From the IMG/VR virus record IMGVR_UViG_3300002835_001349, positions 1-20,876 of that record: DNA of 20,876 bases; one strand, given 5' to 3'. The position numbers and the translations under genes are program-made. Numbering within the stretch: position 1 is the first letter of the stretch; each line of letters begins with the position of its first letter. Of the stretch, positions 1 through 19,990 are shown one piece after another. The notes beneath the pieces are model-generated. The model was not told the origin of the DNA. It searched no databases and worked only from the letters and a program-made list of their open reading frames with translations. Source of the stretch: a virus.

Positions 1-404
1 AAATTGTCGATGAGAGGAGTAACAGCATTGTTATCAGCAGTCCAAGCCCTAGCTTCAGTCTCTTGCTTCGTCCACGATGCCATCTCAGCACTGTCGGTGT
101 TCCCAGCCATTGCTTTAATAGCTGCTTGATATGCATCGCTGTACTGCCTTTGTTTCACATTACGATACCATTCCAGTGGTGCTGAAATAGAGTTAATAGC
201 ACCTAGCACTTCTGCCTTTTGAGCCTCTGTCATAGGAACACCATCAATGTCAAACGTACCGTTTTGCTCGATATAGTTCATGCTCGTAAACGAGAAACTA
301 AATGTTGGTTTCACTGCTAGCATATCCGAGAAGATACCTAGTTCAACTGTCTTTTGAAAAGCACCATTGTTAGAAGGTGCATACCATGTTAGAATGTTTG
401 TCAT
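1..404 (-). CDS. Tail-fibre-assembly-like protein, 3' end outside the window
   Basis: This gene starts at an ATG at 404, eight bases after an AAGGAAA ribosome binding site, and is open to the window edge (134 codons visible). The visible protein opens with MTNILTWYAPSNNGAFQ. Its far end reads SWTKQETEARAWTADNNA followed by VTPLID. A Trp-x-x-Gln-x-x-Glu-Ala motif followed by T-P-L-I-D is recurrent in phage tail-fibre assembly chaperones and in small proteins encoded at the end of fibre operons. That family assignment rests on remembered motif similarity only. Its place directly after the fibre genes and the acyl cassette fits a role in fibre maturation or as a late structural accessory. The stop codon is not visible, so length and C-terminal domains are unknown. 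Confidence 0.6.
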   Translation of the reverse strand, partial: MTNILTWYAPSNNGAFQKTVELGIFSDMLAVKPTFSFSFTSMNYIEQNGTFDIDGVPMTEAQKAEVLGAINSISAPLEWYRNVKQRQYSDAYQAAIKAMAGNTDSAEMASWTKQETEARAWTADNNAVTPLIDN

Positions 405-446
405 TTTTATTTCCTTTTTGTTTTTATGTTAATGAAATCCAATGGC

Positions 447-815
447 TCATTCTAATACCTGTATATTATCTAAGATGCCTTTATCCAATCGTTCATGAGC
501 TTCCAAGTCTAACGGACAGTTATCTGTAGGATCGAATACATCTCCATTAATATCTCTACTAGCAAATGTACAGTACCACAATACCTCATCAGTAAGTGAA
601 GTAATATCATGGACTTTATCAGCTCTTATTACAACGAATGTTGGAGCATGGAATATTTTAGTCTTACCATCTACAGAAACCTCTACAGACCCTTTAGCTA
701 AAATAGATAAATGGTCGTATTTATGTTTATGCCCCCCTATGGTTTCACCTTTAGAGCTAAATACTTTCTGACGTAACCATATATTGGCAAAGCACCCGAC
801 TAAATCGTGAGACAT
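447..815 (-). CDS. Cupin-fold protein, 122 aa
   Basis: A single-domain cupin is the best reading. Metal-binding motif 1 is visible at residues 28-42: G-H-K-H-K-Y-D-H, then six residues and G. Motif 2 lies around 58-69 (P-T-F-V-V-I-R-A-D-K-V-H). Candidate metal ligands are His29, His31, His35 and His69. The glutamate usual in motif 1 is a histidine here (HxHx3H rather than HxHx3-4E); I recall similar HxHxxDH cupins of about 120 residues in other phages, of unknown function. The ATG overlaps the stop of the 149-aa gene upstream (TAATG), so the two are translationally coupled. It closes the chain that includes the desaturase, ACP and ketosynthase. It could be a small dioxygenase or isomerase acting on the cassette's product, or a non-enzymatic virion protein. 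Confidence 0.7.
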   Translation of the reverse strand: MSHDLVGCFANIWLRQKVFSSKGETIGGHKHKYDHLSILAKGSVEVSVDGKTKIFHAPTFVVIRADKVHDITSLTDEVLWYCTFASRDINGDVFDPTDNCPLDLEAHERLDKGILDNIQVLE

Positions 816-1264
816 TATAGCTCCTCTACCGTAGGGGTATTCCCGCTGAAAGGAGGGGCCTCGTAAACTACTTTACCAGTCATAGCGATAATATCAATTC
901 CGTTTCTATAAGCCCCTAGTCTTAAATAAGGGGAGTTGGTTAAAAGGGCTTTACTTCGTAACTCCCCATCTTGCACCACATAGTCTCTCAACTGATTCAT
1001 AGATCCGAAGAAATCTAAAGCCCCTTCAAAAGGAACTAATCCGGCAGTGGCTGCCACAGGGTTGATGTACCATGTATAGAAATTACTATTAGTGACCCAT
1101 GCAATGATATACCCCTCAGAACTTAAGGCTACTGCGGGGTAACTGTAAGGTTCATAGCCCTCTAGTACACGGGTTATAAGTAACCCTGCCGGCCCTTCTA
1201 CATCATAGCCAGCAATTTGGCCATCCTCAACTTTAAAATGGGTGAATCCGATTTTTTCTGACAT
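815..1264 (-). CDS. Unknown 149-aa protein of the acyl cassette, with NFYTWYI motif
   Basis: I do not recognise a family. The protein is soluble, with no signal peptide or membrane segment. It has an acidic C-terminal tail and a central stretch reading NSNFYTWYINP, then a hydrophobic segment with F-E-G-A-L-D-F-F-G-S and M-N-Q-L-R-D-Y. The heptapeptide NFYTWYI also occurs in the 60-aa protein encoded at 3876-4058, at the other edge of the enzyme genes, so the two probably share a small domain. The ATG at 1264 sits one base after the ketosynthase stop, and AAAGGGATATAACATG supplies a ribosome binding site inside the end of that gene. The stop overlaps the start of the cupin. Coupling suggests co-expression with the ketosynthase in fixed ratio. 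A structural, adaptor or enzyme-partner role are all open. Confidence 0.7.
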   Translation of the reverse strand: MSEKIGFTHFKVEDGQIAGYDVEGPAGLLITRVLEGYEPYSYPAVALSSEGYIIAWVTNSNFYTWYINPVAATAGLVPFEGALDFFGSMNQLRDYVVQDGELRSKALLTNSPYLRLGAYRNGIDIIAMTGKVVYEAPPFSGNTPTVEEL

Positions 1265-1265
1265 G

Positions 1266-2351
1266 TTATATCCCTTTCAATTTTAAAAGTACAGCAGCAT
1301 ACACGTTACCCATACCTGCACCAAGTAATAGTATAGAAGTTACTGCACAATGTTTATCATAACTAAGAAACTTATCATCAGTTTCAGTCCGATTTACAAT
1401 ACCCCGTATTAAACCTTTACGGGCATCGGATATAGCTATGCTCAACTCCACGACCCCTGAAGCTCCCATTGTATGTCCTATCTCACTTTTATACCCAGTG
1501 GCTATGAAATTGTCCCCGAAAAACCCTTGGATTGCCGCACGCTCCCCTTCGTTATTAGCTTTAGTACCTGTACCATGTGTCTTAATAAACGTAGGGTTTT
1601 CATAAGCCTTCATGCACCGGCTAATTACAGACTTATAACCTGCACCAGTTATAGTCATACCTATAGGGTTATTACACACTTCCGCACCTATAGCCACACT
1701 AACTACTTCAGCTATGGCTGGGTAGATAGACTCCTCTTTCTCTAAGAGAACGAAACCCCCTCCTTGGGATACGCGGAACCCCCCGTTAGTGCTGTCGAAT
1801 GCAGACGGCTTTCTTACAGCCTCGTCTTCTAATGACATACTAGCTTTAGTCATACCAAAGACCCTCATTACCGAGGCATTTACTTGGTCATCGATACCTA
1901 CCACAAGAACCCGATCTAATTGACCAGACTCAATAAGCCACTTAGCTTCTTGGATACCTTTGTAGCTACTTATACAACTCGTCGCGTCACTAGATATATA
2001 CCCTGTGAAACCAATCTCATTAGCAAACTTACCCGCGACAATATTGATGAGTCCTAGAAAAGGAGCGAAATAATGATAATCGGCTTCCAAAGGAGGGGTT
2101 AGTAAGGCTGCCCCAGCCCATTCTGAAGCCCCGCTAGCGAATACCACCCCACTACGATCCCCGCCTATAGTTCTAAGCTCTTTTTTTAGCTCCTTTGGGA
2201 ACATTTTATCAAGCATATTATGAACACTATATTTCACACCGTTAGCTGTCCCAGCCATAGACCCACTAACCATCCCAACCATCTGAGGGTGCTTACCCTC
2301 GTACTTTACAAATTCGTCAGCTACTATAGATGCGGTTTTAGTTACAAGCAT
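1266..2351 (-). CDS. Beta-ketoacyl-ACP synthase (KAS I/II type), 361 aa
   Basis: Enzymes of this family condense an acyl group carried on the active cysteine with malonyl-ACP, extending the chain by two carbons. The condensing triad is complete: Cys126 in SDATSCISSYKG, His259 in THGTGTKANNEGE, and His293 in YKSEIGHTMGASG, with the accompanying Lys288. Cys-His-His rather than Cys-His-Asn places it with FabB/FabF-type and polyketide ketosynthases, not FabH. The C-terminal GAGMGNVYAAVLL matches the usual glycine-rich end. At 361 residues it is shorter than the usual 400-420: the N-terminal strand and the G-x-V-T-P-x-G region are missing or strongly reduced. I chose the ATG at 2351, after GAGGAA, rather than upstream codons that would run deep into the ACP gene; it overlaps the ACP stop by 14 bases. 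No ketoreductase, dehydratase or malonyltransferase is in the window, so host FAS enzymes would have to supply substrates. Confidence 0.9.
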   Translation of the reverse strand: MLVTKTASIVADEFVKYEGKHPQMVGMVSGSMAGTANGVKYSVHNMLDKMFPKELKKELRTIGGDRSGVVFASGASEWAGAALLTPPLEADYHYFAPFLGLINIVAGKFANEIGFTGYISSDATSCISSYKGIQEAKWLIESGQLDRVLVVGIDDQVNASVMRVFGMTKASMSLEDEAVRKPSAFDSTNGGFRVSQGGGFVLLEKEESIYPAIAEVVSVAIGAEVCNNPIGMTITGAGYKSVISRCMKAYENPTFIKTHGTGTKANNEGERAAIQGFFGDNFIATGYKSEIGHTMGASGVVELSIAISDARKGLIRGIVNRTETDDKFLSYDKHCAVTSILLLGAGMGNVYAAVLLKLKGI

Positions 2352-2631
2352 CTTGGATTTCCTCTTCACTAGGTTCTTTAGTTTTATTAGTTTCGATAAA
2401 GTTGAGCAAGTCTCCGAACACAACATCCCCTTTAGGGAGGTTTTCTTCAAATTTATCGTTAGAAATGTCAAACAAAGAGCTTATCTCTGCATATACCATA
2501 ACGTAAGCAAAGCTGTCAATTCCACAGACACTTAGGCGTTCATTTTCCTCGATACTAATGTACTCGATATCCCCTGAACAGTTCTTTTCAAGTAGTTTAC
2601 GGCAAAGCTCTTTAATAGCGGTTCTAAGCAT
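2338..2631 (-). CDS. Acyl carrier protein, 97 aa
   Basis: Carrier proteins hold acyl chains as thioesters on a 4'-phosphopantetheine arm. The attachment motif is clear: C-G-I-D-S-F-A-Y-V, with Ser40 as the expected modified residue (the usual DSL is DSF here). The rest follows the ACP four-helix pattern: an N-terminal amphipathic helix (M-L-R-T-A-I-K-E-L), the serine at the start of helix II, a following F-D-I-S, and a C-terminal helix F-G-D-L-L-N-F-I. Overall charge is acidic, as expected. It carries an extra acidic tail of about 15 residues (KEPSEEEIQDACN). The ATG at 2631 follows AAAGGG by seven bases and overlaps the desaturase stop by 8 bases; the ketosynthase start lies inside its last codons. 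No phosphopantetheinyl transferase is in view, so host AcpS or Sfp-type enzyme would be needed. Confidence 0.85.
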   Translation of the reverse strand: MLRTAIKELCRKLLEKNCSGDIEYISIEENERLSVCGIDSFAYVMVYAEISSLFDISNDKFEENLPKGDVVFGDLLNFIETNKTKEPSEEEIQDACN

Positions 2632-3448
2632 GGCATAACCCTTTAATATGATTGATATGGTCAATTAAGATTTGATTAGTGTCGATATCCGTATCACCCG
2701 CGATATGGTTCAATAGCTTTATTTTGTCCTCATGAACCTCTCGCATAATAGCAAAGCTGAATAAATGATGGGTTTTATTTACACTCTCCCCGTAACCAAT
2801 ATTAACCTCGGATTGGTGTATCATATGTTTAGTACGGAAAGCCTCTATGAACTCTCTTTTGGATTCTTCAGAATACTCACAGACCTTCTTAGCTAAATCT
2901 CTCCAAGCCGCTTTGTGACGAGCTTCATCCCTAGAAATGTTCATAAACTTCTCTTTAAGCCATTCTGATTCAGCGGCTTTTGAGGCCTCTCGATATACGA
3001 CCGTGTTAGTCACTTCACCGAGTAAGAAACTAACTACGGCCTCATAAGGATTGCCCCAAGGGCTCTCCATGTTGATGTACTCTTGAGCCATTTTTTCAGA
3101 GGTTACAGTATTTTTAAAAGGAGGCTCACCTCTAACAGCGGCAACAAGCTCTTTCAGGAACAATCCGTGTCTGAACTCTTCATAGATAAGGACATAAGAA
3201 GTGAACATGAATACTTCATAAAAGATTGGCATATACTTGTCTGCGTCTTGTAAAGCTAGCTTATGCAAAATAAGTAACATCCCCATTCCACTCATTTCAC
3301 CGTCCCCGACTTGATCCATAGCAATTATCAGGTTCTTATCATTTTCAGAAAAAGTCTCGCAAATGGAGTTGTACTCAAAATCCTCGACGTCCCATTTGGC
3401 TTTTTCAGCGATTAGTCCGTATTTAGTTACAATCTCTATACCTTTCAT
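2624..3448 (-). CDS. Soluble diiron acyl-ACP desaturase-like enzyme, 274 aa
   Basis: The protein matches the ferritin-like acyl-ACP desaturase family, which uses a diiron centre, O2 and ferredoxin electrons to insert a double bond into an ACP-bound acyl chain. All six iron ligands of the plant stearoyl-ACP desaturase have equivalents: Glu51 (G-D-G-E-M-S-G), Glu91 and His94 in IYEEFRHGLF, Glu145 (S-F-L-L-G-E-V-T-N), and Glu175 and His178 in SRDEARHKAAW. The two motifs EExRHG and DExRH are the family signature. Length is close to short bacterial members such as mycobacterial DesA2 (about 275 aa). It is mostly helical, with no membrane segments. The ATG follows AGGGAG and overlaps the previous stop (ATGA); the ACP gene begins inside its last codons, which fits a carrier-substrate pair. 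No ferredoxin or reductase is visible. A hydroxylase or N-oxygenase activity on the same fold cannot be excluded. Confidence 0.85.
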   Translation of the reverse strand: MKGIEIVTKYGLIAEKAKWDVEDFEYNSICETFSENDKNLIIAMDQVGDGEMSGMGMLLILHKLALQDADKYMPIFYEVFMFTSYVLIYEEFRHGLFLKELVAAVRGEPPFKNTVTSEKMAQEYINMESPWGNPYEAVVSFLLGEVTNTVVYREASKAAESEWLKEKFMNISRDEARHKAAWRDLAKKVCEYSEESKREFIEAFRTKHMIHQSEVNIGYGESVNKTHHLFSFAIMREVHEDKIKLLNHIAGDTDIDTNQILIDHINHIKGLCHA

Positions 3449-3879
3449 ATCATCTCCCTTCCTAAGAAATATCCACGGACGTTTACATCCGCTTCCGCTA
3501 CGTATGGGTTATTTATAAACCCATTATATATTCTGCCATCGTCTAACAGCAATCCAAGCGCATATTGGTTATTCACAGAATGTATTACTAAGCAATCCGG
3601 TTGCTTCTCACAAGGTCTTAATTGTGAGTCAATGGAATCTCTTAAGTAATTCATGAGAGAAGGAAAATCCAATGATCTTACGTCAAGTGCTCCTCTCTTT
3701 ATTGACAGAATTACAATGCTACTCTCAATCTGGGCAGCATATGAAGTAATAAACTCCGAGCTATACCCTTTTATAAAGTAGTGCATAAACAAAGGTTTAA
3801 AGTAATTTGACTCACGCAGGTTAGGTTTGTCATCAAAGAGCTCATCTACCTTTAATGCAAGTTCAGTATAATTATTCAT
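3445..3879 (-). CDS. Unknown 144-aa protein coupled to the desaturase
   Basis: I do not recognise a family. The N-terminal two-thirds looks helical and amphipathic (M-N-N-Y-T-E-L-A-L-K-V-D-E-L-F, then a hydrophobic segment F-M-H-Y-F-I-K-G-Y). The C-terminal third looks like a small beta-rich domain (A-L-G-L-L-L-D-D-G-R-I-Y-N-G-F). Two cysteines lie close together in R-P-C-E-K-Q-P-D-C. There is no signal peptide or clear membrane segment. Both ends overlap neighbours by four bases (ATGA), so it is translated in step with the 60-aa protein before it and the desaturase after it. That placement suggests a partner of the desaturase-ACP-ketosynthase set, for example an acyl transferase, an ACP-loading factor or an acceptor for the acyl chain. 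This is context only; no catalytic motif is seen. Confidence 0.7.
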   Translation of the reverse strand: MNNYTELALKVDELFDDKPNLRESNYFKPLFMHYFIKGYSSEFITSYAAQIESSIVILSIKRGALDVRSLDFPSLMNYLRDSIDSQLRPCEKQPDCLVIHSVNNQYALGLLLDDGRIYNGFINNPYVAEADVNVRGYFLGREMI

Positions 3880-4058
3880 GATAATCCTTTTTCAAGCAGT
3901 TTATTATATGTCGTAAATTCAACAGTATATTCGTCTTCTTTCGGTTTAACTAGAGAAACCTCAGTTCCTTGGATATACCACGTATAAAAGTTATTCGCGC
4001 CTATAGATTTTTCACTAGGTTTGCCATTTTTTAATACAGTTTTAATTATAGTAATCAT
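3876..4058 (-). CDS. Unknown 60-aa protein with NFYTWYI motif
   Basis: This is a small soluble protein of unknown function. The start is taken as the ATG at 4058, because it forms an ATGA overlap with the stop of the 155-aa gene and follows GGGGGA; an in-frame ATG at 4073 would add five residues. The stretch I-G-A-N-N-F-Y-T-W-Y-I shares seven identical residues with the 149-aa protein at 815-1264. Alignable residues follow: a proline and glutamate, then a phenylalanine and N-K-L-L-E against N-Q-L-R-D. It may be a trimmed copy of the same domain. It lies between the tail-tip-like protein and the 144-aa protein and is coupled to both. Confidence 0.65.
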   Translation of the reverse strand: MITIIKTVLKNGKPSEKSIGANNFYTWYIQGTEVSLVKPKEDEYTVEFTTYNKLLEKGLS

Positions 4059-4522
4059 GCTGCTGTCCCCCATACTCTACAACTAGCTTGTGGTGTCGGG
4101 CAATCTGTAGTTGTAGCTGTGTTATAACTATTATATGTGTCGAAGAATATATTAATAGCGGTAGTTCCTGCAGGTAATGTAACCGTACCTGTTCCTGAGT
4201 TTATGTGTATTCCGTTAATAGTTATATTAGTACCCATTGTGTTTTCATACATTGCAGTAGTATGTGCTTCATTGGCTGTAAAATTAACTACAGTAGGAGC
4301 TGATAAAGGAACTGGTAATGGAACAGAAACAGATGTATCTTGGTAACTATTACCTCCTCCCTTGAGCTGACTATATCTAACACCGGTATCAAAAGCAGTA
4401 GCAACAACCTTAGCCCATACCAATGTACCGTTAGCTATTACTTGCGTGATACTGACACCATTTACCATTAAAGCATTTGCTACGTTTTCAGGTATTGTTA
4501 CCCCATTTACTACTAAAGGCAT
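4055..4522 (-). CDS. Tail-tip-like virion protein, 155 aa
   Basis: The N-terminus (M-P-L-V-V-N-G-V-T-I-P-E-N-V-A-N-A-L) followed by V-N-G-V-S-I-T-Q-V-I-A-N-G-T-L-V-W repeats a short V-N-G-V-x-I unit. This pattern is familiar from small phage structural proteins encoded after fibre genes. The rest is rich in Thr, Val and Asn and predicted beta (for example T-I-N-G-I-H-I-N-S-G-T-G-T-V-T-L), consistent with a receptor-binding tip or a decoration domain. Two cysteines in the last 20 residues (D-C-P-T-P-Q-A-S-C) could pair. It begins ten bases after the knob fibre gene and is coupled by ATGA to the next gene, so it links the fibre block to the acyl-enzyme block. Its function as a tip protein is inferred from composition and place. 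Confidence 0.65.
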   Translation of the reverse strand: MPLVVNGVTIPENVANALMVNGVSITQVIANGTLVWAKVVATAFDTGVRYSQLKGGGNSYQDTSVSVPLPVPLSAPTVVNFTANEAHTTAMYENTMGTNITINGIHINSGTGTVTLPAGTTAINIFFDTYNSYNTATTTDCPTPQASCRVWGTAA

Positions 4523-4532
4523 CTTAGTACCT

Positions 4533-5519
4533 TTAGAAGTTCAATGTCAGGGTTGTACCTGAAACAGAGGCTTTTATTCCACCGAATGTTGCTGCATTAG
4601 CTACCGGCAGAGTGTATGCGTTAGCGCCAGCAGCGACACCGTCGAGTTTGGTTTTATCCGCAGCGATCATTAGTCCATTGACAGTTGTGGTTACAGCAGC
4701 TGTGGTGGCAAATCCAGCATTATTTACAAGCTCAGTTATATTTGCGGATGAAACGTCCACTCTTGTCCATGCAGACCACGTCCCAGCCGACACGTTTCTT
4801 TGATAGATAGCATTTGCATTATCTTCCCACCCGTAAGCAATTTGAGTTCCCCAGTAGTTATCACTATTTGTGTGTCTAATAGAGTTAATTACCCACCAGC
4901 CAGTGTTAGGAGCATCTGCCCACCCACTACACTCTCGTGTGGAAGTTGAACCAGCTGGGGTATTGTGAAAAATAGCCAAACAACTACTTCCAGTAACATT
5001 AGATGTTTGGAAGGTAGCTGAACCAGCATTACCTGTAATTGTTGTCTGAAGAGGATGTACGTGATCTGCTCTAGCGACAGTTGTACTAGTACCAACAGCG
5101 GCGGTACCAGCAACAACAGGTGCAGTTGAACTTAAAGCTGTAATGCTGTTAAACGAAGTTCCTGTAAAGGTTGTTCCTGCTAAAGAACCAGTTAATGTCC
5201 CACCAGCTAAAGCCAATCTATCACCAGCAATTTCAGTTTTAACATTCGCTAGTGTCTTTGGTCTGAGCCACCCATCGCTACCAGTTTCAACCATATAGTG
5301 TGATGCACTGTTTGCGGTATCTGCCAATGTACTATTTAACGCATTAGCATACACATAACCATTAGCATCTCTAGCAACAATAGTATTTGCTGTAGCTGCA
5401 GTTGTTGCATTCATACCATCCAGTAAATCAGCATCTAAACCTGAGCCAGAGCCATCATTTCCAGTATGCCAAATAAGGTTTCCCCCGACAGTACTTCCAC
5501 CTCTTAATTTATCGGCCAT
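4533..5519 (-). CDS. Tail fibre protein with pyocin-knob-like domain, 328 aa
   Basis: The protein opens with a shaft signature found in many phage fibres: V-G-G-N-L-I-W-H-T-G-N-D-G-S-G-S-G, then L-D-A-D-L-L-D-G-M. A middle region has the G-G-T-L-T-G shaft repeat, a F-N-S-I-T-A-L-S-S module and the sequence A-R-A-D-H-V-H-P. Residues about 205-255 (T-G-W-W-V-I-N-S to G-T-W-S-A-W-T-R-V) match the pyocin-knob fold that forms bulges in fibre shafts. The shaft ends with V-N-G-L-M-I-A-A-D-K-T-K-L-D-G-V and a short beta tip. Its F-N-S-I-T and D-H-V-H-P module is also at the C-terminus of the 1016-aa fibre, so the two share ancestry by recombination. It is likely part of the distal fibre. Confidence 0.85.
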   Translation of the reverse strand: MADKLRGGSTVGGNLIWHTGNDGSGSGLDADLLDGMNATTAATANTIVARDANGYVYANALNSTLADTANSASHYMVETGSDGWLRPKTLANVKTEIAGDRLALAGGTLTGSLAGTTFTGTSFNSITALSSTAPVVAGTAAVGTSTTVARADHVHPLQTTITGNAGSATFQTSNVTGSSCLAIFHNTPAGSTSTRECSGWADAPNTGWWVINSIRHTNSDNYWGTQIAYGWEDNANAIYQRNVSAGTWSAWTRVDVSSANITELVNNAGFATTAAVTTTVNGLMIAADKTKLDGVAAGANAYTLPVANAATFGGIKASVSGTTLTLNF

Positions 5520-5544
5520 GTTTGTCTCCTTTTACTTTTAAACA

Positions 5545-8064
5545 TTATACCAAGTTTTCATAAGTACTTGCTGAACTTTGTATTCTTAACCCATTTTTAG
5601 ATGCTGACATTTTAGTCTTTCTAAAATCTAGTAGTTCTTGCGCTGTCATTGCTCTTTTTAAAATAGTTAGATGTTTGTAATAACTCCAACATTCGTTACC
5701 ATTATCCCAGCCACCTAACTTCAAATCATAACCGTGTTGAGTTACATAATAATTAGAAGCAATTGTACCATAAGTAATCGTTCTAGTTCTTTGAAGTTTG
5801 TCATTCATCCAAGTTTCTATAGTTAAATTCGTACCAGATTTTACCATTGTTACGCATTGCCAATTCTGAAAGTACGAAGCAGGAGTAATACTGGAGTTAG
5901 TTGTTTGGTATAAATCATCACTATTAAGAGCTTTCCCCCAAAAAATATAACCACCACCTATAGTATTTGAATTACACCCCAATGATTCTAAATTATATCC
6001 AGTTAAATTTGCTTCACCTAGATGAGTACCAATGGGCTTCTTAAAATAACAGATACTCCAGTTAGCGTTCCAGTCTAATCCTATCGAAGTATTTAAGTTG
6101 TACTCTAACGCTGTTCCGCCAACAACATAAACATCTCCTGTTGAAAAACTTGAAGTTGATTGAGTTGGTATTACGGAATTCATAGAATCTTTCCCATTTA
6201 GATCAAGGGGAAAGTAAAAACTATCAGTAGGAGTGATAGGTTTAACTTCAATACTTTTCGTAATTAATGTATCGGATGTTATAGAATGAGTACCTTTAGC
6301 TAAAGTTTTTATTTCACCTGCTGATAGTGCTCTGTTATATATCGAGAGATTCTTAATAATCCAACTATAGCTAAATCTAAAGAAATCCGATGGCAAATCA
6401 GAGATAGTATATGTTACAGCTGATGCAACTAGAGTATTATTAATATACATAGAATATCCACTTGTGGTATCCCATACCCACGTAAATGAGTTCCATGCAT
6501 TTTGTATAATATACGGAATAGTATTAATAGTTCTATATGTAGATCCGTCTCTTAAAAACATTGTTTCTGGTATAACGTTATTAGCACTTTTTCTAAGCAT
6601 AAGAAATCTATTAGATGCTGGTGTTGTAAAATCTAACATATCAATATAACCAGTTGTACTATATAATTCAGGATAAATATAAGTTTCAAAATGAAAAGTA
6701 CCAACGGATGGATTTATAGACTTTGCTGAGTATTGTAAATATCCAGCACCTCTACTTCCATTTACATATTCCGTTGCAGATGCTTTTTTTTCTAATTGCC
6801 AATCTCTATAATATACAGTGCCATTATTATCGAGGTCAAGTCTTGTTCCAATATTAACTGTTGCTGCATTTATGAATGTATAAGTAAGGCTTAATTTTAC
6901 CCAACCATCCCACGGATTAACAATAATAGTTTTTTGTGGAATTTGAACATAAGCATTACTAGAATTGAGCTCAAATATATACATTTGAACACTAGCCCCA
7001 ACAGTTTCAGAGCGAACATATACAGTGTTTGTCCAAGTATCCCCCGCAATAGATGGAGTGAGAGCAAAGTTACTAGAGCTAAAATAACTTTCAGCACCAG
7101 AACTATTTGTATGTCTTAATACATTTCTTCCCAATGTATTATCATATACTATTGATAATGCACCATTGGCTGCTGATAAATAAGGCTGACGTAACCCATT
7201 TGAAAAATCACCATATGGTATTATATTAGTAGTAGCACTTTCTATCGCAACACCATTAAATGTTTTTGTATTACTTGTATCCGTCACCGGATTAGTTACA
7301 TTACCTTCGCCAGATAATAAATCATCTAAGCTTGGCTCTGTGCCATCACATAGATCAACTCTTGGGTATGCCCATTGCTGATTTGTTTCTGCTAATGTAG
7401 AATAATACAAATACGTTCGTAAAGATGTCGTTGTCGCCGTTGGGGAAAATTTCAAAGATGTTATGGATTGTAACTTCACTTTCTGTAAATTGTATACACC
7501 TGCATCTTCAACTGGGTAAACATTTCCGATATCAGAAGGGTATATATAAGCTACATATAATCTCCAATCAGACCCAGCTATACCACCAGACCAAAAATAC
7601 GGATTGGTGTTTACAGTGTTTGCTACTATATTATAAACTGAAGAATTGGTGGCGCACCCGAAATACCCAGTACCATTTCCCGCTACTTTGCGTCTAATCC
7701 ATACCGAAAATCTATATTTTTTAGTTCTATCGATAGTGAATGAAGAACCATCCCATCCACCATCAGGATCCGATGCTACATCATTTCCAAGTGCTTGCCA
7801 AATAGCTTGCGGTTCTCCAAATGGTCCAATATCTTCAACGATACTATTTTCAGAGGAAGTTCCATTTTGATTGAACCCAACTTGCGAACCAGTGGTTCCA
7901 ATTGTCCATGTGGAATAATCTATTTTATTCAAATATCCTATTCCTTTTGTCGACCCATCAAATGGGTAATGAGCCACTAATCCGTTTGTTACTAATGGTA
8001 AACGAGTGTCTATAGATTTAGATACTCTTAATTCACCATCATTTGTCAATCTTCCTGCTATCAT
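5545..8064 (-). CDS. Fibre protein with laminin-G-like and carbohydrate-binding-like domains, 839 aa
   Basis: This is a large multidomain virion protein, probably a glycan-binding fibre or tip. After an N-terminal leader with G-L-V-A-H-Y-P-F-D-G (about 28-37) come two jelly-roll regions resembling carbohydrate-binding modules: about 110-235 (K-Y-R-F-S-V-W-I-R-R-K) and about 280-428 (N-I-I-P-Y-G-D-F-S-N-G to Y-Y-R-D-W-Q-L-E). Two concanavalin/laminin-G-like domains follow: about 452-590 (G-T-F-H-F-E-T-Y-I-Y-P to N-L-S-I-Y-N-R-A-L-S-A-G-E-I) and about 614-817 (F-Y-F-P-L-D-L-N-G to L-T-I-L-K-R-A-M-T-A-Q-E-L). The closing N-R-A-L-S-x-x-E and K-R-A-M-T-x-x-E-L motifs are typical of LamG ends. Two hand-counted 60-base samples gave 28% and 33% GC, lower than the terminase region. 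The start follows AAAGGAATTATAATG, 13 bases after the 1016-aa gene. Confidence 0.85.
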   Translation of the reverse strand: MIAGRLTNDGELRVSKSIDTRLPLVTNGLVAHYPFDGSTKGIGYLNKIDYSTWTIGTTGSQVGFNQNGTSSENSIVEDIGPFGEPQAIWQALGNDVASDPDGGWDGSSFTIDRTKKYRFSVWIRRKVAGNGTGYFGCATNSSVYNIVANTVNTNPYFWSGGIAGSDWRLYVAYIYPSDIGNVYPVEDAGVYNLQKVKLQSITSLKFSPTATTTSLRTYLYYSTLAETNQQWAYPRVDLCDGTEPSLDDLLSGEGNVTNPVTDTSNTKTFNGVAIESATTNIIPYGDFSNGLRQPYLSAANGALSIVYDNTLGRNVLRHTNSSGAESYFSSSNFALTPSIAGDTWTNTVYVRSETVGASVQMYIFELNSSNAYVQIPQKTIIVNPWDGWVKLSLTYTFINAATVNIGTRLDLDNNGTVYYRDWQLEKKASATEYVNGSRGAGYLQYSAKSINPSVGTFHFETYIYPELYSTTGYIDMLDFTTPASNRFLMLRKSANNVIPETMFLRDGSTYRTINTIPYIIQNAWNSFTWVWDTTSGYSMYINNTLVASAVTYTISDLPSDFFRFSYSWIIKNLSIYNRALSAGEIKTLAKGTHSITSDTLITKSIEVKPITPTDSFYFPLDLNGKDSMNSVIPTQSTSSFSTGDVYVVGGTALEYNLNTSIGLDWNANWSICYFKKPIGTHLGEANLTGYNLESLGCNSNTIGGGYIFWGKALNSDDLYQTTNSSITPASYFQNWQCVTMVKSGTNLTIETWMNDKLQRTRTITYGTIASNYYVTQHGYDLKLGGWDNGNECWSYYKHLTILKRAMTAQELLDFRKTKMSASKNGLRIQSSASTYENLV

Positions 8065-8077
8065 TATAATTCCTTTA

Positions 8078-11000
8078 TTAGTTAATTATAAAGTCTATTG
8101 AAGACTGTGTTGCGTTGTAAACCATAGACGCCTGCTGAGTACTTCCAATATTTATAGAAGTTGTAGCATTAATTACTGGAGCAGTTACAACACCGTCATC
8201 CAAGTCAATTTTAGCTTTTGTTACACCAGCACCATGAAATTCTAATGCATTATCTGTAGTATTCCAATACATACCCCAATTCGTAGCAGTGGCTAACCAA
8301 TATCTATTAGAATCGTCATTAAAAATAGTTCCAGTTAATGTACCACCAGTTAGTGATAATTTAGTTGTATCGCTCGGGTGTACGTGGTCAGCTCTTGCCG
8401 CCGTTGTACCAGTTCCTATTGCAGCAGTACCATTAGTTAATGGAGTTGTACTAGATAAACCAGTGATTGAATTAAAACTTGTTCCAGTTGCTACACCTAA
8501 TCCTGTTACATTACCTGTAAAAACTGGTGAAGCAATATTAGCTTTTAAAGCAATAGCACTAGCTTGAGCAGTACTTACAGGCTTATTTGCATCAGACGTA
8601 TTATCAGCACTCCCCAGTCCTACGTCAGCTTTAACCAAAGTGATTACACCAGTTTTACCAGCTACACTATCTACAGCACCAGAAGTAATATAAACATATG
8701 CAGAACCACTCCAACGATACGTTTTATTAGTGGCTAAGTCAACATAAATTTTACCAGTCTCTCCTGTAGCAGGGAATGAGGCTAAATTTGCACCTTCAAT
8801 AACATCATCCACATAAGAAGGCAATCTAGCAGCATCAATTGTACCTGTAGTAATTTTACTAGCATCTAGAACTGGAATATCAGATGCGCTTAATGTAGTA
8901 CCAGAAGTAACTCTTCCGTAAACATCAGTAGTTACTTTAGAGTAACTACCTGCTGTTCCCGCAGTCGCCAAAGAAATAGTTGGGCTCCACCCTTCATCAG
9001 CAGTCCCAGTTACCGCTATACCAGTACCAGCTGTATTTCCAGCAACATAGTTACCAGTTGTATCAGTACCAAGAGCTACTGAATTTGCTGCCACAGTAGT
9101 TGTGATTGCCGCATTTGCACTACCATCAAACGAAACAGAACCAGTAACATCACCCGTCAAACTTATTGTTCTAGCAGTTCCTAACTTAGTAGCAGTCGCT
9201 GCATTACCAGTTGTTGATTGATTGAACGTAGGCCAAGTTTGACCTCCAGCAAATACAACTGCACCTGTTAATGTACCACCAGCAAGAGGTAGTTTAGTAC
9301 TATCAGCTACTGTGATATTAGCTGTGCCATCAAAAGATACACCATTGATTGTTCTAGCTGTAGTTAATTTAGTTGCCGAAAGAACATTTTTAGCGCTATC
9401 AGCAGTATTATCTACGTTCCCAAGTCCTACCATAGTTTTAGTAACACCAGTAACAGTACCAGTAAATGTAGGTGAAGCTAATGGTGCTTTCAAATCAAGC
9501 GCTGTTTGGGTAGCTGTTGAAATCGGCTTACTAGCATCAGCAGTGTTATCCACGCTTCCTAGCCCTACGTCCGCTTTTGCGAGTACTACCGCACCAGTGC
9601 GTCCAGCGACACTTGCCACTGTATTTACTTGCGCCCCTGCTGCGATTCCTGCTAATTTAGTTTTTTCTGCTGATGTATAATCTTCAGTAGAAAGACCTTT
9701 ACCTGTTACTTTATCTACTTTAGCATTTAAAGCCGTTTGGGTAGCAGTACTAATCGGTTTATTAGCATCAGAAGTATTATCTACTGAACCAAGTCCAACA
9801 TCACCTTTTACTAGAGTTACAACACCTGCTTTACCAGCAACCGAATCAACTGCTCCTGATGTGATATAAACATAAGCAGAGCCTGACCATCTATAAGTTT
9901 TATTAGTATCTAATGCTACATAAATCTTACCTGTCGTACCTGCACTCGGGAATCCAGCTAGGTTAGCGAATTCAAGGACGTCATCTACATACGAAGGTAA
10001 TTGAGAACTAGGTACTAGTCCTCCAGCATCTAATGTAGCAACTCCGTTGGCTACACCTAAGAGACTACTAGCTACACGAGCTGTTGTATCTACTGCATTG
10101 ATAGTAATGTTAGCAGTGCCATCAAAAGCTACACCGTTAATAGTGCGTGCAGTAGCTAGCTTCGTTGCAGTACCAGCGTTGCCAGTAATAGTCGTTTGGT
10201 CTCCTGTATTAGAACCAGACAATGTAGTAATGCCTAATTTAGTTTTAATAGTAGTGACTGTCTCATCACCTGTATTTGTTCCACTGATAGCGTCTAACTT
10301 GGTTTTATCTGTGCTAGCCATAAGACCGTTTGCAGATGTAGTAGCAACTGAGGTAGATGCTTTTCCGTTCCAAGTTGTTTTTTCTGTATCAGTAACGAAA
10401 CGGTTTGACGCGTCCTGCGTAATGATAGATGCTGGGTGAGATGCTGGGTGTGTATATACTGTATCAGTAAACACTGCTCCTGCAGGTACATTAGTTAGTA
10501 CTTGTGCATCGTCCACTTTTCCGTCTAGTGCCGTCTGAGTAGCAGTAGAAATAGGCTTTAACAAGTCAGTTGTATTATCTACATTTGATAACCCAACATC
10601 AGCTTTAACTAAAGAAACCACTCCAGTTTTACCTGCTACACTAGCAACAGTATTAACCTGAGCGCCTGTTGCAATACCACCCAACTTAGTTTTCTCTACT
10701 GAAGTATAATCTTCTGTAGATAAACCTTTGCCAGTTACTTTATCAACTTTGTTACTAACAACACTTGTAAGAGCAGCTACTGCACCTTGGTCGGTAACTA
10801 GTTGATCTGCAATTTCTTTAAATGTATCTAATGTAGCTGGAGCCAACGCCGTTAACACTGCAATTTTAGAATCAACCTGAGATCCAGTTTGGAAACCAGA
10901 ATCATTAGTCAGATCGCTTACATTTGTAGGTATTGCTGAATCTACTTCAGTCTTTGTATATGTTGTAGCTTTATCAGCTTTGCCTGAAATATCCGTAGCA

Positions 11001-19204: not shown

Positions 19205-19990
19205 CTACTCCTCAATCTCAGTATCGATTACTATACCAACTCTTTGTACCTCTCTAAGTGATCTTCCGGACTGGAACTGTTGGCGCATTAACTCAGCACT
19301 CTCTGCAATTTGCTTAGCCAAGTTCTGTTGCATCTGCATTGCTTCTTCATTCAACCCAACCTTTAACTCAATACTCTTATCTTCCGGTGGACGTAGGTAA
19401 TCCAACGCTCCAAGGGCCGCATTTAACTGCACAGTTGGGCTAACGTAGTCATCCACTTTAGCACCAACCCCATTGGTAAGATCCACCAACTTCTTAATTA
19501 GCTGATTACGCACCGGTAAGAACTCAATATGTGCATGAATCGCAGATCTGCTTAGGATCTCCACAACAGTCTTTGACTTAGCATACTCCGTAGCAAAACT
19601 ACTAGTATCACTCTTCCGTGCTTTAATCTCTAATGTCTTTACAGGAAACACAAGCTCATAGGCTCTTGTATTAGAGCACCCGGTCTGCACATGTGACACA
19701 AACTTAATCGCATTAATCAATCGATCAACCGATACCCCAGGCCCAATCAAGTCTGTGTATGATAGAAACTTCTCTTCAAAGTAATCTTGCAGCAGCCCAT
19801 CAGATTCTTCAATATTATGGATACGTTCTAGTGTTGCTCGAATTGTTTCATCATTTACTTGGCCCTTCATTACACTACGTAATAGTTCTTCTGTGATTAA
19901 GGACTCATTAGACTCAGCAGCCTGGCGCATCTCACCTTTTACATTCTTTACTAAATTTTTTACTGAATTATTTATAACTTCTTTTGCCAC
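19205..19990 (-). CDS. Probable terminase small subunit, 261 aa
   Basis: The start is set at a GTG at 19990, because it follows TAGGAGA at the right distance and begins just after the stop of the GIY-YIG-like gene. An upstream ATG at 20050 would overlap that gene by 50 bases. The protein is largely helical. An N-terminal part could hold a DNA-binding bundle (L-I-T-E-E-L-L-R-S-V-M-K). A C-terminal Gln- and Glu-rich coiled coil runs from N-E-E-A-M-Q-M-Q-Q-N to M-R-Q-Q-F-Q-S. No helix-turn-helix is certain. The call rests on its place three bases before the large terminase, its size and its helical make-up; a general packaging accessory is the alternative. Confidence 0.5.
   Translation of the reverse strand: MAKEVINNSVKNLVKNVKGEMRQAAESNESLITEELLRSVMKGQVNDETIRATLERIHNIEESDGLLQDYFEEKFLSYTDLIGPGVSVDRLINAIKFVSHVQTGCSNTRAYELVFPVKTLEIKARKSDTSSFATEYAKSKTVVEILSRSAIHAHIEFLPVRNQLIKKLVDLTNGVGAKVDDYVSPTVQLNAALGALDYLRPPEDKSIELKVGLNEEAMQMQQNLAKQIAESAELMRQQFQSGRSLREVQRVGIVIDTEIEE

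Follow-up and report, generated by a model that had tools for sequence, protein, structure and literature searches.

Lipid genes in phages

Genes of fatty acid metabolism have been met in phages before. In Rhodobacteraceae prophages, acpP, fabF and fabG are found in the standard order of the host fab operon (PMC8224337), and this set is probably host DNA; the cultured Alteromonas phage R22Y, assigned to Schitoviridae by its authors (PMC11705849), encodes an acyl carrier protein (ACP), gp30; fabF/G/Z have been reported from the deep-sea virome; and the lipid desaturases of cyanophages, cited in PMC8224337, are an instance of phage-borne fatty acid desaturation. The literature searched (most subscription papers, and preprints, lay outside its scope) contains no description of an ACP and a ketosynthase as a fixed pair within virion operons, whether a diiron oxidase accompanies them or not, which agrees with an earlier note on the DNA analyzed here, whose author knew of no characterized phage system with such a set. 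That note had drawn attention to adjoining genes for a diiron desaturase-like protein, an ACP and a ketosynthase in a virus record, and had read them as a minimal route to make and hold an unsaturated acyl chain.

The gene cassette and its setting

The stretch of DNA analyzed (the window; 20,876 bases of the virus record IMGVR_UViG_3300002835_001349) carries its main genes all on the minus strand, in the order terminase, virion- and fibre-type proteins, and then a dense run of small genes. The cassette and its surroundings comprise the following features:

447..815, minus strand: small cupin (Cupin_2 30.0 bits, cut-off 27.2), closing the coupled run
815..1264, minus strand: 149-aa protein of no family, starting 1 nt past the ketosynthase stop
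1266..2351, minus strand: phage-type beta-ketoacyl-ACP synthase (KS), 361 aa from ATG
2338..2631, minus strand: ACP, 97 aa from ATG
2624..3448, minus strand: diiron protein, ferritin-like, resembling soluble acyl-ACP desaturases, 274 aa from ATG
3445..3879, minus strand: 144-aa protein of no family, overlapping the diiron gene by 4 nt, in the coupled run
3876..4073, minus strand: 65-aa protein of no family, overlapping both neighbours, in the coupled run
4055..5519, minus strand: tail/fibre-type proteins of 155 aa and 328 aa, immediately upstream of the run, so called from position and weak PHROG matches to long virion-type proteins

The three cassette genes are adjacent minus-strand ORFs at the places given for them earlier, the diiron gene overlapping that of the ACP by 8 nt and the ACP gene that of the KS by 14 nt. 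Their neighbours (3876–4073, 3445–3879, 815–1264 and 447–815) are joined on by overlaps or a 1-nt gap, and a coupled run from the tail gene to the cupin, as predicted from this spacing, is therefore likely; the tail and fibre setting that had been claimed for the cassette is supported. Family searches (Pfam, PHROGs) gave nothing above chance for the 144-aa protein, nor did family searches for the 65-aa and the 149-aa protein, and no relation was detectable between the 144-aa and 65-aa proteins and the ~170-aa and ~60-aa proteins that precede the ACP in three other viral loci (L018, L090 and L091). The small proteins encoded at 3876–4073 and 815–1264 (minus strand), which flank the cassette and otherwise look unrelated, have a near-identical octapeptide in common (NNFYTWYI and SNFYTWYI, respectively). 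The cupin has a relative (L091:10124–10564; 32% identity over 113 aa) in a phage with an ACP-KS-diiron cassette.

The window's terminase and the virion protein next to it are related to those of phage R22Y, at just 28–36% identity. A second contig, IMGVR_UViG_3300042402_001098, matches positions 1–8351 of the window at 100% over 8351 bp, possibly from the same reads, and continues past the shared part into lysis-type, portal and major capsid genes; as phage genes thus lie on either side of the block, it is no chimera with host DNA. By this contig and by recurrence of the block in other phages, an assembly chimera or host contamination, which the earlier note had named among the things that would undo its reading, is rejected.

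The carrier protein and the ketosynthase

The ACP bears the phosphopantetheine site, Ser40, within the motif GIDSF, and D39 and S40 are invariant in 22 relatives. The AF2 model (pLDDT 90) has the carrier-protein fold, with Ser40 opening helix 2 (residues 40–54), and its fold matches in the PDB are carrier proteins; a profile of the family, compared with the PDB, matches ACPs at an E-value of 2e-6. Pfam has no match to the window ACP, and a relative from a Sulfurovum locus (L093) reaches 15.0 bits with PP-binding, for which the cut-off is 20.8.

The KS lies above the Pfam cut-offs with both its domains (ketoacyl-synt, 47.6 bits; Ketoacyl-synt_C, 40.6 bits) and matches phrog_35856 (E 1e-43), a PHROG to which no function is assigned. 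The earlier assignment of both families, made on Ser40 of the ACP and on Cys126, His259 and His293 of the KS, therefore stands, by Pfam for the KS, by fold and profile matches for the ACP, and by residues invariant in the relatives: C126, H259, T261, K288 and H293 are present in 35 of 35 members of the KS clade, and of the malonyl-binding threonines of HGTxT, T261 is found in all 35 and T263 in 33. What differs is the gate loop, the role of which in FabF has been described (PMC7138838); GFGG(T/H)N of FabF is replaced by GMGNVY. In FabF numbering, Met occupies position 400 in 35/35 sequences (M347 of the window KS is the counterpart of Phe400), Asn position 402 in 33/35, and Tyr or Phe position 404. 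Because the GFGG loop with Phe400 and Asn404 is lacking, the protein was filed as an enzyme of the KS superfamily and not as FabF; with the NCBIfam FabF equivalog it scores 101.5 bits, well under the cut-off of 493.75. Judged by sequence, they represent a new ketosynthase family whose members are small and have a changed gate. A second, Cys-less KS, corresponding to the chain-length factor in the minimal set of type II PKS, was not found beside the phage KS in the neighbourhoods examined.

The diiron protein

AF2 predicts the diiron protein with confidence as a ferritin-like bundle (pLDDT 87), and the ligands E51, E91, H94, E145, E175 and H178 (pattern E, ExxH, E, ExxH) are invariant in seven relatives. 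In Pfam, AurF, Rubrerythrin and FA_desaturase_2 come out at or close to cut-off; with FA_desaturase_2 the window protein scores 21.7 bits, under the cut-off of 22.7, and its relatives 15.4–19.3. Among the families listed by VIA-align, the plant acyl-ACP desaturases (Z 14.6), PaaC (14.1) and aldehyde-deformylating oxygenase (ADO; 13.7) tie as fold matches, and phmmer against the PDB with the diiron protein alone returned chance-level matches only. The model and the ligands bear out the diiron half of the earlier designation as an acyl-ACP desaturase-like protein, while membership of the desaturases is not established; the protein probably is a ferritin-like diiron oxidase that would work like a desaturase. 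The proposed route to an unsaturated chain fares similarly, in that intact active sites and the block of genes agree with a route that makes and holds an acyl chain, and the unsaturation itself is left in doubt by the fold ties among diiron oxygenases. As to the profiles that had been suggested for the three proteins, ketoacyl-synt is above cut-off, FA_desaturase_2 falls just short and PP-binding has no match.

Searches turned up eight viral contigs with the diiron gene, each with a KS gene next to it; GenBank phages and plasmids gave no match. Its bearers make up about five phage lineages besides that of the window; in these and in one Sulfurovum locus the three genes recur as a block, beyond what chance would give. 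In the other phages the order is ACP-KS-diiron, in the window diiron-ACP-KS; in two of the viral loci (L008 and L024) the diiron gene is placed between fibre and lysis/terminase genes. At L018:7309–7896, the gene next after that of the diiron protein encodes a 2OG-Fe(II) oxygenase, a second oxygenase in that run.

Distribution, pairing and evolution

Relatives of the KS, searched with a two-sequence KS alignment, are present in at least 475 viral contigs, a lower bound since exact conserved patterns were scanned, and one that includes redundant contigs; the 83 KS sequences examined form 32 clusters at 80% identity. Among 50,697 GenBank phage records, the family is carried by a single one, the uncultured MW202545 (tblastn), other KS matches there being weaker and FabF-like. 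In MW202545 (L002), the ACP (19660–19941) is annotated as hypothetical, and the annotated start of the KS (19938–21038) is probably too far downstream. A scan of 84,980 bacterial and archaeal species genomes gave 12 loci: three close bacterial relatives in Campylobacterota MAGs (L092–L094), a phage contig within a Balneolaceae MAG (L095), a phage contig with a divergent KS within a Sulfurospirillum MAG (L096), and a remainder of distant matches. The very divergent phage KS (L096:7734–8636) retains the Cys, both His and the Lys, with no ACP found nearby. In 399 genomes of the order to which the Sulfurovum MAG belongs, the KS occurs in two (E 1e-30) and a close diiron protein in one. Going by these counts, and within the limits of pattern scans, the KS family is mainly viral.

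Of the 84 viral loci examined, 83 have an ACP no more than 600 nt from the KS, and in 42 the two overlap by 4 nt; the lone exception is a contig cut inside the KS. These loci are the ones most similar to the window KS and not a random sample; the ACP profile was built from 22 ACPs, and most of the 83 paired ACPs lie outside it. The largest group has, in this order, a tail protein, a 75–116-aa protein, ACP, KS, a conserved ~145-aa protein and a large protein that begins with a run such as MGAVVSAV. When the ~145-aa family was used for the search, ACP and KS were both present in 72 of 76 usable loci and both absent at the same place in four, in a sample that had been ordered by likeness to a phage with the cassette and overstates cassette frequency; at this common site after the tail gene, neither was ever seen singly where there was enough flank. 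ACP and KS are therefore gained or lost together. Across phages, the cassette sits either between tail proteins and the pair of ~145-aa and ejection-type proteins, or between fibre and lysis/terminase genes; ACP and KS are its core, and the diiron gene is found in a minority of cassette phages. Where it can be estimated, dN/dS is 0.02–0.17 (KS, 0.04–0.14; ACP, 0.02 in one close pair; diiron gene, 0.17 in a close pair), taken from close pairs as synonymous sites are saturated in more distant ones, and the cassette genes are thus under purifying selection.

A tree of 40 rows unites the viral KS with those of L092 and L093 in one clade apart from FabF (support 100/100), with the window KS as sister to L092/L093 (96/92). 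Very long outgroup branches prevent placement of the root inside the KS clade, and transfer between phages and Sulfurovaceae may have gone either way. For the host of the window phage, Sulfurovaceae are a weak lead. L092, L093 and L094 are rare Campylobacterota biosynthetic clusters around a phage-type KS: in L093, from Sulfurovum, diiron gene, ACP and KS follow each other as in the window and are succeeded by genes for a metallo-beta-lactamase-fold protein, a FabG-like protein and a type I PKS; in L092 there are several ACPs and several KSs, along with genes for a thioesterase and exporter-like proteins.

Proposed role

As predicted from the genes, the cassette very probably encodes a dedicated enzymatic module for making an acyl-ACP. 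With the ACP-KS pair in hundreds of environmental phages, many phages would appear to produce their own chain, akin to a fatty acid, at a late stage of infection. Host AcpS would load phosphopantetheine onto Ser40 of the phage ACP. The KS, whose active-site residues are intact, would take an acyl chain from acyl-ACP on Cys126 and condense it with malonyl-ACP, employing H259, H293 and K288 together with T261 and T263; its chain selectivity is probably unlike that of FabF, because the Phe of the gate is replaced. In the diiron-bearing lineages only, the diiron enzyme would then oxidize the ACP-bound chain, most likely by desaturation. AcpS-type phosphopantetheinyl transferases, FabD-type acyltransferases and SDR/reductases were not found above cut-off in the phage records searched, which may be incomplete; host supply is therefore needed, and the remaining functions might come from host FabD and host reductases. 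In the last and weakest step, the finished acyl-ACP may serve to lipidate a tail, fibre or ejection protein, much as RTX toxins and CdiA are lipidated by acyl-ACP-dependent acyltransferases.

To this reading as a whole, an acyl-ACP module expressed late with the tail genes, the product of which lipidates a virion protein, we give a probability of roughly 40%. The destination, taken by itself, is put forward tentatively. Three things favour it: several types of phage have the cassette within their tail and fibre operons, R22Y has its orphan ACP in the tail region as well, and CdiC provides a precedent for lipidating a receptor-binding filament from acyl-ACP (PMC8510554). More doubtful is the wider proposal of a widespread phage system in which an acyl chain of the phage's own, held on a private carrier, would lipidate tail, fibre or ejection proteins and so produce a lipid-armed particle. 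A search with HlyC for an acyltransferase of virion proteins in the phages gave nothing, and control genomes were equally silent. The ~145-aa protein after the KS was considered as a GNAT- or HlyC-like acyltransferase and set aside as speculation at most: profile searches of PDB, Pfam and PHROGs gave no relatives with known function, and four phages keep it without ACP and KS. These four have the same tail neighbourhood, and the cassette is therefore not needed for those proteins to work.

Since no phage reductase or thioesterase was seen, a free small molecule or bulk lipid is possible as the product, and both are serious rivals to a virion destination. The acyl-ACP could be passed to host PlsX, PlsB and PlsC and end in phospholipid or lipid A, with effects on fluidity, on the timing of lysis or on superinfection, the tail position reflecting late expression only. 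Such late remodelling of the host membrane requires no missing phage acyltransferase, the cassette precedes lysis and terminase genes in one group, and earlier papers suggest that phage ACP and fab genes are auxiliary genes of lipid metabolism (PMC11705849, PMC8224337, PMC10653327). Remodelling is nevertheless judged rather unlikely: a late structural operon leaves little time for a bulk change of lipids, and a dedicated phage ACP would have to compete with abundant host ACP.

Somewhat less likely still is a small diffusible or membrane-active molecule (a signal, a siderophore-like compound or an inhibitor) such as the Sulfurovaceae clusters presumably make. The closest bacterial relatives of the KS do stand in biosynthetic clusters, which contain either a type I PKS or multiple ACPs and KSs accompanied by a thioesterase and exporter-like proteins, and the tree joins the window KS to them; yet no release or tailoring enzyme, transporter or thioesterase was seen to recur immediately behind the KS of the phages.

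Host ACP interacts with many proteins, and phage ACP and KS might mainly be decoys, which would tie up these host proteins or deplete malonyl-ACP and so stop host lipid synthesis, the product being incidental. That the ACP at times occurs without a KS, as in R22Y, would suit this idea, but it is improbable given that all catalytic residues are conserved under purifying selection and that a diiron oxidase has no obvious place in it. Captured host fatty acid genes without phage function, or a chimera, for which no more speaks than the metagenomic origin of the contigs, are largely refuted by recurrence in many lineages with conserved flanks, by the second, identical contig, by dN/dS far under 1 and by the separation of the KS clade from FabF, and are given hardly any weight. 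A host fab operon carried over was likewise rejected, with the KS in a clade of its own and the fab neighbours missing; nor did any SDR pass the cut-off in the phage records searched.

Comparison with known systems

Lipidation of a virion protein by the phage module would have its nearest functional parallel in the lysyl acyltransferases HlyC and CdiC, as acyl-ACP would likewise be used to lipidate a receptor-binding filament (PMC8510554); a HlyC homologue was, however, not detected in cassette phages, nor did the control genomes yield one. Like FabF and FabB, the window KS has the Cys-His-Lys-His site, the malonyl threonines and the Pfam KS domains, but it is ~50 aa shorter, the N-terminal Pfam domain being matched only from profile position 110, and the phage KS are set apart by the altered gate, a clade of their own and the genetic tie to a private ACP. 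With the soluble acyl-ACP desaturases (FA_desaturase_2; castor, ivy, DesA2) the diiron protein shares the bundle and the ligand set, and they are its best fold match; identity is ~12–16%, however, the Pfam score stays just below cut-off and the fold is tied with PaaC and ADO. The cyanophage desaturases are membrane-bound histidine-box enzymes unrelated to the ferritin-like fold, and are not known to have an adjoining ACP or KS.

The KS of the Sulfurovaceae clusters L092–L094 show 45–49% identity, and ACP adjoins KS in L092 and L093; unlike the phage cassette, these clusters are on contigs from bacteria, in the company of genes for PKS, FabG-like proteins, thioesterase and exporter-like proteins and not of virion genes. 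R22Y gp30 is phage-borne and in the tail region as well, but R22Y has no such KS or diiron gene. Its orphan ACP (L107:23774–24070) is located just ahead of a pair of genes for 167-aa and 919-aa proteins, a place that resembles that of the ACP-KS cassette elsewhere. A KS is borne by phage in the deep-sea virome too, yet neither that report nor those on R22Y and the Rhodobacteraceae prophages describe an ACP-KS pair fixed in a tail operon. Lipid genes in phages have so far been viewed as auxiliary strays that were copied from hosts; in the present case, ACP and KS are a fixed pair with a KS clade of its own, present in hundreds of viral contigs, nearly absent from bacterial genomes and located inside virion operons. 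Should the chain end on the virion, this would be a new way of arming a phage particle; should it end in lipids, it would be a new late step of host takeover.
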